The notes under the pieces: model-generated | Told to the model about the DNA's origin: nothing | The model's input: only the letters and a program-made list of their open reading frames with translations | The model's database searches: none | DNA from: an uncultured Gammaproteobacteria bacterium | GTDB lineage: Bacteria; Pseudomonadota; Gammaproteobacteria; Pseudomonadales; Azotimanducaceae | Reading direction: 5' to 3' | Assembly (NCBI GenBank): GCA_913050035.1 | Contig: CAJXAC010000013.1 | Coordinates: 1-43,176, forward strand | DNA length: 43,176 bases | Part shown: one piece after another, positions 14,289 to 18,923 of the stretch | Layout: every line of letters starts with the position of its first letter | Numbering within the stretch: position 1 is the stretch's first letter | Made by a program: the position numbers and the translations under genes

Positions 14289-14360
14289 CGTAGAGGGCGG
14301 TGTGTGTCTCAGGGCTGCGGCCCAGAAAGACGCTATTCGCGAAAATCCTTAGGAGAAACT

Positions 14361-14984
14361 ATGAAAACAATGGCGAAAATCTTATCTGTAGCTACGGCAA
14401 TGGCTGGGACTGCTATGGTGCCCGTTGCCGCGCATGCAGATGTGTCATACAACGTTGGCTTTGCATCTGAATACTATTACCGCGGCTTTTTCCAAAAGAG
14501 CTCATCAGCGAGCGCAGGCATCGACTTTGAAGAAGGCGGTTTTTATGCGGGCGCTTGGACCGCGGATGTGGGTGAAGGTCTCGAAGTAGACGGTTACCTA
14601 GGCTACGGCGTCGAAATGGGCGACGTCTCTGCGAGCGTCGGCTTTACTGGTTATTACTACACTGGGTCATTCGACAACACTTACGAAGAGATCAACTTCA
14701 ATGCGGGCTATGGTCCTTTGAGCCTAGAATACTCTGTAGGCACTTATGACGATCCGGCTGCCGAGCAAGATTACAGCTTCACAGCCTTGTCTGCGGACCT
14801 CGGTGCTGGATTTTCCGCGACCTATGGCAGCTTCGGTCAAGACTTCGCTGGTGCGTACTTCCAAGCGGATTACGGCTTTTCAGTGGCGGAGCTCGACTTC
14901 GGGGTTTCTTTGATCTTCCCAGATGATGACATCGCCACTGAAGATGGCGAAGCAATCGTTCTCTCTGTTGGTAAAAGCTTCTAG
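14361..14984 (+). CDS. TorF-family putative porin
   Basis: A 207-aa outer-membrane beta-barrel protein. Residues 1-25 are a signal peptide ending AHA/D. The mature start VSYNVGFASEYYYRGF and alternating hydrophobic/aromatic strands through to a C-terminal VLSVGKSF (terminal Phe) are typical of the family. The ATG at 14361 has AGGAG at 14351-14355; the longer frame from 14304 has no support. In Pseudomonas and relatives this family sits next to glnK/amtB, as here, and the sigma-54 promoter upstream supports induction under nitrogen limitation. It probably admits a nitrogen compound; which one is not known. Confidence 0.88.
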   Translation: MKTMAKILSVATAMAGTAMVPVAAHADVSYNVGFASEYYYRGFFQKSSSASAGIDFEEGGFYAGAWTADVGEGLEVDGYLGYGVEMGDVSASVGFTGYYYTGSFDNTYEEINFNAGYGPLSLEYSVGTYDDPAAEQDYSFTALSADLGAGFSATYGSFGQDFAGAYFQADYGFSVAELDFGVSLIFPDDDIATEDGEAIVLSVGKSF

Positions 14985-15941: not shown

Positions 15942-17653
<1,712 letters not shown>

Positions 17654-17672
17654 CAAAATCGCCTATCGAAAT

Positions 17673-17697
17673 AAGGGGTGGGTCGCTCCACCTTTTT
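17673..17697 (+). terminator. Terminator after first P-II gene
   Basis: AAGGGGTGG pairs with CCACCTTTT (two G-T pairs) around a short loop, followed by T residues, 20 bases after the stop codon. Confidence 0.75.
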
Positions 17698-18020
17698 AGG
17701 TCTGCTCAATATGAGAGTGGGGTCGAGGGCGTAAAAACGTACCTCGAAGATCGGACAGCAGTGAAAGCATCCACGCTAGTTGAAAGAGATGGGTCGGGAG
17801 TTAGCGTGGGACGTAGCGTGCCTTAGGGAAGTGATATCGCGACGACCCGAGGTTGGATGTGAGGCCCCTATAGGGCTAAATGGTGCTAGGTTTTGTAGCG
17901 GTATCGATACTCGGTTGTTATGTCGCAAGCTCCCTCCGGGCCAAACTCGTGCATTTGCGTTAAAAAAAGCGAACACATCAGTACTTGCAACGATTCTAAA
18001 ATTATTATACGTTTTTGATT
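17698..18020 (+). other. Intergenic region with several inverted repeats, no gene recognised
   Basis: This stretch between the first P-II terminator and the riboswitch has no convincing gene. It holds CGAGG with CCTCG (17723-17744), CCACGCTA with TAGCGTGG (about 17772-17810, loop over 20 bases) and GCCC with GGGC (about 17865-17880). Frames on both strands (17780-18037 plus, 17776-18057 minus) run into the riboswitch and resemble nothing known. A weak promoter for the riboswitch (TTGCAA 17985-17990, TATACG 18006-18011) lies at the end. It may encode an unrecognised small RNA. Confidence 0.4.
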
Positions 18021-18073
18021 CGTTCACCTCGTTCTGAGGCGGAAGTAGGCAAATCATTGACCGAAGGAACGCG
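18021..18073 (+). ncRNA. Glutamine riboswitch (glnA RNA / downstream-peptide class)
   Basis: The conserved core of the glutamine aptamer is visible. P1 is CGTTC (18021-18025) with GAACG (18067-18071). P2 is CCTC (18027-18030) with GAGG (18036-18039) around a 5-base loop. The conserved strand CGGAAGTAGG is at 18040-18049 and CCGAAGGAACGC at 18061-18072. A further hairpin (18082-18102, 8 bp) and the small SD hairpin CTTG-AGG-CAAG (18119-18129) lie between the aptamer and the ATG at 18135. There is no T-tract, so translational control is more likely than termination. The class is known mainly from cyanobacteria and marine metagenomes. Confidence 0.9.
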
Positions 18074-18134
18074 CTGAGAGTCTCACGCGGCTTTCGCGTG
18101 GGCGTTGTAAAAACGAAACTTGAGGCAAGATGAT

Positions 18135-18296
18135 ATGGCTAACTACTACAGAGGCTCTAAAATAGCAGAAACCAACAATAAGACCGTGACAATGCCAGCG
18201 AAAAGATCTGGCGTATATCGGGGCGTGAAGTTTTCTGGCGAGTCAAATGAACGCTCGAAAATGCGCGATGGAGTTTACCGCGGAGTTAAGTGGTAA
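18135..18296 (+). CDS. 53-residue YRG-repeat small protein (DUF4278-like) under glutamine riboswitch
   Basis: A small open reading frame with ATG at 18135, GAGG 9 bases upstream, and TAA at 18294. The product has three copies of a short repeat: NYYRGSKI at residues 3-10, VYRGVKF at 27-33 and VYRGVKW at 47-53, joined by polar linkers rich in Ser, Asn, Lys and Arg. It is basic, has no membrane segment and ends right after the last repeat. YRG-containing proteins of this size resemble DUF4278, and short proteins of this kind sit behind glutamine-type riboswitches in cyanobacteria. It is followed by a strong terminator, so riboswitch and gene form one short transcript between two P-II genes. A role in binding P-II or AmtB is inference. 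Confidence 0.85.
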   Translation: MANYYRGSKIAETNNKTVTMPAKRSGVYRGVKFSGESNERSKMRDGVYRGVKW

Positions 18297-18312
18297 AACA
18301 TCGGCTACGATA

Positions 18313-18338
18313 AAAGGGGGCTGTAGGCCCCCTTTCTT
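18313..18338 (+). terminator. Terminator of the small YRG gene
   Basis: AAAGGGGGC and GCCCCCTTT form a perfect 9-bp stem with a 5-base loop, followed by CTTTG, 17 bases after the stop codon. Confidence 0.92.
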
Positions 18339-18575
18339 TGCTTTAGATGCTTGCTAAGCGACGTGTCAAATAATCATTTACAGCCAATAGGCCTTTGTCG
18401 TTTATGATCCCGCTCTCTCCAATGCCACTCGTATATCCTGCTATTGCTATGGGTACACTCAACAGCTAAGGCCAGTCAGATTATGAAATCACTATTGCCG
18501 TTTTGCTAAATTTATCTAATCCCGTAGCCGGTTGGTCTCCAGGCACCGGTCGAATCTGCAAAAAATAAACAGTAA

Positions 18576-18923
<348 letters not shown>

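Follow-up and report, generated by a model that had tools for sequence, protein, structure and literature searches.

A glutamine riboswitch aptamer upstream of a small DUF4278-like protein gene in heterotrophic gammaproteobacteria and in viral contigs

The window analyzed here, a 43,176-nucleotide stretch of a gammaproteobacterial draft genome, contains, on the forward strand, an ammonium transporter gene of the marine subtype (15942..17159; TIGR03644, 648.9 bits), a PII gene, glnK1 (17318..17653), a gene for a 53-aa protein with three YRG motifs (18135..18296; hereinafter YRG), and a second PII gene, glnK2 (18585..18923), with thrC also found behind the two glnK genes. A cmscan search of the complete window against 4227 Rfam families (Rfam 15) yielded a single match at the gathering level, to the glutamine riboswitch family RF01739, at 18019-18075 on the forward strand (52.5 bits, gathering threshold 35, E = 7.6e-9), and this match covers the model in full length (53 of 53 positions). 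The core of the aptamer, which the first-pass annotation had described as present almost letter for letter, is found at exactly those positions: P1 (CGTTC 18021-18025/GAACG 18067-18071), P2 (CCTC 18027-18030/GAGG 18036-18039), and the core motifs CGGAAGTAGG (18040-18049) and CCGAAGGAACGC (from 18061); P3 (18048-18049/18061-18062) is short. The aptamer is present in a single copy in its own genome (2.6 Mb in 120 contigs, 91.7% complete) and ends 59 nt upstream of the YRG start codon. The annotation had also named the Downstream-peptide model as one to be searched; that part of the check came out differently, with no match to RF01704 (Downstream-peptide, type 2) at E ≤ 1 within 17600-18700, and membership in that family was rejected for this reason. 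A match to RF02420 (0.77, 21.3 bits vs 50) was dismissed as chance.

Like the type 1 glutamine riboswitch (glnA RNA, RF01739), the RNA of the window has a P1/P2/P3 core with conserved joining sequences; unlike type 1 as it is known, it belongs to heterotrophic gammaproteobacteria. The available text of PMC2864571 describes glnA RNA from cyanobacteria and marine sources, and a 2018 review, in the portion accessible, describes glutamine riboswitches as restricted to cyanobacteria (PMC6316151). The Downstream-peptide motif, according to the same part of PMC2864571, stands in front of conserved, very short ORFs, both in cyanobacteria and in marine samples; the window aptamer differs from it in matching a different model.

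The YRG gene starts with the ATG at 18135, 9 nt downstream of the Shine-Dalgarno (SD) sequence TTGAGG (18120..18125, forward strand; ACTKGAGG in 23 aligned leaders), and its product has the pattern MANYYRG...YRGVKF...YRGVKW; no second frame with two YRG motifs was found among the stop-to-stop frames of the window. For all 10 YRG proteins compared with Pfam, DUF4278 (PF14105) was the only match at E ≤ 1 (E 9e-6 to 0.021); two of these reach the cut-off of 25.3 bits (L022, 26.4; L025, 25.3), and the window protein, at 17.8 bits in a match spanning residues 1-52, stays below it. By sequence similarity, YRG appears to be related to DUF4278 (the IF17/PMM1846-type family of cyanobacteria) but divergent from it, with no additional part outside that domain within its 53 aa. 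The dN/dS ratio of YRG in relatives is 0.16-0.41 in 6 of 7 pairs and 0.86 in the seventh, which has only 4 differences. AlphaFold, run with a 14-row alignment, predicted no ordered fold (mean pLDDT 57.4, pTM 0.13). No tblastn match to the window protein was found in isolate phages (E 0.1) or plasmids (E 0.1), nor to the YRG protein of the viral contig L047 in isolate phages (E 0.01).

The pairing of this RNA with this protein has cyanobacterial counterparts: in the gifB/IF17 leader of Synechocystis and in PMM1846 of Prochlorococcus, a glutamine aptamer likewise lies just 5' of a small DUF4278-type protein gene (PMC6316151, available portion). There are also clear differences. IF17 is 149 aa long (PMC7760959, as far as the accessible text goes) and includes, in addition to DUF4278, a part with no counterpart in YRG; in the glutamine synthetase (GS)-inactivating factors IF7 and IF17, the GS-inhibiting part lies outside DUF4278, so that YRG would be without it. 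Furthermore, PMM1846-like picocyanobacterial genes are presumably controlled by a type 2 aptamer, and that of the window is type 1. The inactivating factors themselves are described as unique to cyanobacteria in the part of PMC7760959 available.

Among 58 genomes, comprising the window's own, 36 others of its genus and 21 others of the order, the aptamer was detected in 4 and YRG in the same 4, all of the window's genus. We take this genus to be K189A because of the match in L017 (K189A clade AG-908-B16), which repeats the gene order ammonium transporter, glnK, YRG, glnK, thrC. From aptamer to start codon, the window is 92-94% identical to L017 and L018 and 87% identical to L019, whereas the surrounding matches in L017 and L018 are 68-81% identical; no other DNA of the region is as well conserved as the leader. 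In L019, compensatory changes in P2 and in the platform are apparent from the alignment, including a double change of A-U to C-G in the platform hairpin (read by eye). The presence of the aptamer in only 4 of the 37 genomes of the genus could be taken to indicate a degenerate remnant that no longer responds to its ligand. The full-length match to the model, the conservation of the leader and the compensatory changes in L019 make this very improbable. Even less probable is an assembly artefact in which a cyanobacterial or phage fragment ended up in a gammaproteobacterial bin. In its favor, the genome is a draft, in 120 contigs; against it, the unit lies inside a contig of 43 kb, flanked by a glnK gene on either side and followed by thrC, in the same order as in the L017 record, and the SAR86 copies described below lie on contigs of up to 495 kb, so that this explanation is largely refuted by gene order common to independent records.

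When named genomes were scanned with an alignment of YRG proteins, 14 pattern matches resulted, of which 9 (L017-L025) are relatives: one from the K189A clade AG-908-B16, three from MAGs, four labelled SAR86, and one from MED-G141, whose YRG protein is that of G426 of the SAR86 family. These homologs were found by protein alone; RF01739 was detected upstream of YRG in all 9 on genome contigs. In the SAR86 family (that is, the family of G232, assigned from the labels of related records), YRG is present in 31 of 40 genomes, including 11 of 13 of high quality, in all 4 genera; the paired protein in this family makes the locus more than a one-genome curiosity. RF01739 scored above threshold in each of the 30 loci fetched out of the 31 (37.0-45.8 bits), and the proteins are 52-55 aa long. 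In an even class-wide sample of 369 genomes, RF01739, searched with stricter filters, was found in 4, 3 of them exceeding the cut-off, and YRG in 2. The surroundings vary: next to the aptamers in L003, L024 and the SAR86 loci read, L021 and L025, no recognizable nitrogen genes were seen, and in L021 and L025 YRG lies between era-like and recO-like genes (all named by eye). The placement of the RNA in a nitrogen-control cluster, put forward by the annotation, holds in that the ammonium transporter and the two glnK genes adjoin it; however, this is a neighborhood rather than a regulon, as the RNA leads its own 53-aa gene. Taken together, the RF01739 score, the conservation in relatives and the link to a DUF4278-like protein bear out the claim of a glutamine riboswitch in a gammaproteobacterium. 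At the sequence level, a glutamine riboswitch aptamer in this heterotrophic gammaproteobacterium is strongly supported, and the aptamer of the window almost certainly binds L-glutamine.

Covariation was assessed in 28 of the 30 SAR86 leaders, aligned separately, with L172, L183 and the K189A leaders left out and the structure drawn on one leader. Pairing was retained in 95.8% of the cells, and 18 of 39 pairs had changed on both sides; the covariation score was 0.318, compared with 0.138 ± 0.009 for shuffles (none of 500 as high) and at most 0.087 for slid controls. The number of further pair types is less telling (35 vs 32.4; 57 of 500 shuffles). Double-changed pairs number 6 of 9 in P2, 2 of 7 in P3, 5 of 8 in the outer P3 hairpin and 5 of 6 in the platform hairpin (helix 6); in the same 28 leaders, P1 never varies, and the inner P3 hairpin (P3b) shows neither double changes nor covariation. 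The platform common to K189A and SAR86, GCGYTGAGA - hairpin - ACGAAA...ACTKGAGG, falls outside the Rfam model. The SAR86 aptamers (L171-L200; for example, L172:1304-1503) carry a long P3 insert with near-invariant AAAACCTC, AGCAAGTACC and GGGAACGAGACCGAA and a covarying stem; the gap between GGAAGTA and GAAGG is 75-84 nt in the SAR86 and L024 forms compared with 15 nt in the window. This P3 extension could serve as a second domain for sensing or for tertiary contacts.

Downstream of the window aptamer, the letters form a platform hairpin, CTCACGCG/CGCGTGGG (18082..18102, forward strand), the SAR86 counterpart of which is the covarying one, and a small hairpin CGTT/AACG (18103..18115, forward strand) just 5' of the ribosome-binding site, also seen in folds; by eye, AACGA of the latter could alternatively pair with UCGUU of the P1 5' strand. 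Upstream, no consensus promoter was detected on the forward strand in 17600-18620, and reading by eye points to a possible promoter with TTGCAA and a weak -10 box (17985..18013, forward strand). A clearer box, TTGCAT or TTGCAC-N17-TATATT, is located 6 nt 5' of the aptamer in L017 and L018 (by eye), so that the mRNA there would start at the aptamer; the window mRNA may start near the 5' end of its aptamer, too. Terminator-like sites follow glnK1, upstream of the aptamer (17675..17689, forward strand), and the YRG gene (18313..18335, forward strand), and hence the riboswitch probably governs YRG alone; altogether, 3 such sites were found in 17600-18620 compared with a mean of 1.1 (sd 1.0) in shuffles. 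None was found between the aptamer and the ORF, in agreement with the earlier reading that no terminator separates the RNA from its gene.

That reading had placed the SD in a small CTTG-AGG-CAAG hairpin (18119-18129). The hairpin is present in the window, but its second arm is CATG in the three close relatives L017-L019, so that it was rejected as a conserved element. A pairing between the P2 5' strand and the SD, noticed by eye, was dropped as well because P2 of L019 is CCCC, which mismatches GAGG. A better candidate than the SD hairpin is an alternative pairing of the P3 3' strand and core with the region from the SD to the start codon. In folding predictions for 35 leaders, mean openness rose from 0.50 to 0.89 at the SD and from 0.48 to 0.90 in the spacer-start stretch when the aptamer was forced. 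In 4 of the 5 SAR86 leaders tested, the SD gain exceeded that of 59 or 60 of 60 shuffled platforms (fraction as high 0.02 for L172 and none for L183, L188 and L195); the gain in L198 was unremarkable (0.48). In the four K189A leaders, which have a short P3, SD openness with the aptamer forced was only 0.50. Unforced, it was 0.07 in the window, 0.13 in L018, 0.48 in L017 and 0.49 in L019, with no gain upon forcing in the latter two, and the K189A gains were unremarkable against 60 shuffles (fraction as high 0.13 for the window, 0.12 for L018 and 0.22 for L019). The duplexes predicted for the P3 3' strand with the region of the ribosome-binding site were, on average, more stable within than across 8 lineage groups (-6.96 vs -5.96 kcal/mol, permutation 0.001), an advantage that stems from K189A, L024 and the L198-L200 group and is absent in 5 of the 8 groups, which are not independent of one another.

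We read these models as ON control of translation, with alternative partners competing for the P3 3' strand; this is fairly clear for SAR86 and only suggested for the window. The annotation had considered control at translation probable; this fits the lack of a terminator and the folds of the relatives, although the SD gain in K189A does not stand out from shuffles. That last observation speaks for a rival in which the glutamine riboswitch is an OFF switch or a transcription attenuator, with YRG made at low glutamine. This rival also gains from two gammaproteobacterial genomes, G088 and G343, in which aptamers precede glnA, gltB and gltD as well as an ORF with an ammonium transporter gene behind it (names by eye), all expected to be glutamine-repressed. 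We nevertheless consider it unlikely, given that the SD opens beyond the shuffled controls in most of the SAR86 leaders tested, that the window lacks a terminator-like site between aptamer and ORF, and that the cyanobacterial switches ahead of DUF4278 genes activate, according to the available portions of PMC6316151 and PMC11288750; the same sources report activation of IF17 translation by glutamine. The ON direction at translation is thus our preferred reading and probably the right one. The mRNA would begin at or near the aptamer; at high L-glutamine, the aptamer would fold (P1-P2-P3), freeing the ribosome-binding site, and the 53-aa YRG would be made, whereas at low glutamine, the P3 3' strand and core would pair with the region from SD to start codon and hold translation down. 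We are fairly confident in the central proposition, namely, that the RNA responds to glutamine and, as a switch, raises the translation of YRG.

The combination of leader and YRG protein is, by sequence, common to host and viral contigs. A search of viral contigs with the YRG pattern gave 18 matches, of which 8 are relatives, with RF01739 upstream of all 8, in tandem in 7. In a further search of 8 viral loci, one (L221) gave no RF01739 match at E ≤ 0.01, although its letters fit the core. The aptamer pattern itself has at least 120 matches in viral stretches. Among the 92 of these loci that were examined, 88 have, at a distance of up to 160 nt, an ORF of 16-81 aa preceded by an SD; at least two YRG motifs are encoded in 20 of the 92. 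These viral aptamers (L051-L142) mostly precede tiny, diverse ORFs, with other recurring kinds such as MTKYQ...NPFYP and M..RFTHLFK...STNNW. The SAR86-type P3 core was found in 11 viral contigs; the aptamer end is readable in 10, and 8 have at least two YRG motifs. A pattern made of the aptamer 3' end and the start of the platform matched 23 viral contigs; L230 and L231 were dropped because they lack the aptamer, and the remaining 21 share the gammaproteobacterial leader; in 19, the ORF called behind it contains at least two YRG motifs. Selected ORFs were probed in 7 contigs: head, portal, tail or baseplate genes were recognized in 4 (L047, L204, L215 and L221), an endolysin in L045, and DNA-metabolism genes only in L209 and L224. 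We take the structural genes to be T4-like.

Glutamine riboswitches of the same class are known from marine phages: the available text of PMC9004378 reports them in phages of marine heterotrophs, namely, Melnitz and Mosig, and that of PMC9964418 in T4-like cyanophages including S-CREM1. In Melnitz, the aptamer accompanies a tmRNA gene and, as far as PMC9004378 goes, is absent from the OM43 host and the named relatives; in contrast, hosts and viruses here share leader and YRG. This raises the question of whether the module is phage-derived or phage-exchanged, with a protein that serves infection or superinfection control rather than, primarily, a nitrogen brake. As regards the RNA, such an origin is compatible with the explanation preferred here. 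It draws on the many viral aptamers ahead of tiny ORFs, on the leader shared by most of the platform-pattern contigs and on the structural genes of 4 of the 7 contigs probed. However, YRG in most SAR86 genomes, across all genera and, in L021 and L025, with era-like and recO-like flanks, looks like a long-kept host gene, and none of the 7 pairs has a dN/dS as high as 1, so that we regard a primarily viral role as rather unlikely.

No GlnE match was found in any of the 37 genomes of the window's genus, although 20 of the 21 genomes from elsewhere in the order have one, nor in the 20 further genomes searched (18 of the 40 SAR86 genomes plus G088 and G343); GlnD is kept in 35 of the 37. The glutamine synthetases of three carriers (G000, G014 and G232) are GlnII-like, with 357-384 bits to the best NCBIfam model, the cut-off of which is 500. 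Searched against the PDB, that of G000 matches 344-423-aa glutamine synthetases in 16 of 19 cases (E 1.6e-94 to 8.7e-83), the remaining 3 being 443-464-aa proteins at about 1e-11. PF00120 scores are at most 331 bits in 28 more genomes (16 of the genus and 12 SAR86, 3 of the latter 12 with no match) compared with 436-456 bits for the type I synthetases of G056, G343 and G088. GlnII is the eukaryote-type enzyme and is not a substrate of GlnE. In K189A and SAR86 (L041:1213-2220, L034:1219-2226 and L035:1210-2187), the gene for the GlnII-like synthetase adjoins a histidine-kinase-like gene (ntrB by eye), and the two stand where glnA-ntrBC would be expected. K189A genomes encode an additional synthetase-like protein of 450-480 aa; in the window's genome, a 469-aa glutamine-synthetase-like protein lies beside an amidotransferase (L030:743-2895), perhaps in a gamma-glutamyl-polyamine pathway.

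The presence of aptamer and YRG in K189A, in most SAR86 genomes searched and in viral contigs suggests a shared nitrogen-control module. YRG may be induced by glutamine and act on nitrogen assimilation as a brake or adaptor, much as the DUF4278/IF proteins do in cyanobacteria. Its hosts lack GlnE and have a GlnII-like synthetase, and the type of synthetase sets them apart from the cyanobacterial case. We lean toward such a brake, with less assurance than for the switch itself. Its carriage by viral contigs, where braking host nitrogen assimilation is not the role one would first expect, speaks against it; so does, for action in the manner of IF17, the statement in the accessible part of the 2018 review that DUF4278 is dispensable for IF17 function (PMC6316151), because YRG consists of that part only. 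GlnII as the direct target of YRG is possible but doubtful. The idea that YRG substitutes for GlnE is weakened by the genus as a whole, all of which lacks a GlnE match while the module is present in only 4 of 37 genomes; the 33 genomes with neither GlnE nor aptamer nor YRG match imply that YRG is not a needed substitute. More tentatively still, GlnE-less SAR86 and part of K189A could have evolved or acquired a riboswitch/YRG module that restrains the eukaryote-type GlnII and is exchanged with phages as a complete cassette of leader and gene; in SAR86, the aptamer would have gained a conserved P3 domain, perhaps one for a second signal or for the tuning of affinity.

As far as checked, the host range, the leader architecture and the metabolic setting are new, and the RNA class and the protein family are known; in the literature searched, within the text accessible, we found no report of an aptamer-YRG module in SAR86 or K189A, with subscription papers and Rfam species lists outside the scope of the search. 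An aptamer paired with a DUF4278-like protein in SAR86, K189A and viruses would shift where RNA-based glutamine sensing in the sea is placed. With the module, there would also be a testable explanation of how nitrogen assimilation is damped in bacteria with GlnII-like synthetases and no GlnE, and a starting point for the role of the many tiny viral proteins encoded behind riboswitches.

Two genomes of the class-wide sample, G088 and G343 (about 1 Mb; L005-L012), have aptamers and no YRG. Their aptamers, single or in tandem, precede glnA (tandem), a 46-aa ORF (tandem), gltB and gltD, and one more precedes a 198-aa ORF followed by the transporter gene (names by eye; the synthetase of G088 is also backed by its PF00120 match). 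Targets of this sort have previously been listed for glnA RNA in marine samples, according to the available text of PMC2864571. In the window, a protein encoded at 14304-14984, shortly upstream of the ammonium transporter, has, by eye, a YYRGFF/YFWRGMS-like stretch, and the ORF between aptamer and transporter in G088 (L005) looks similar to it.
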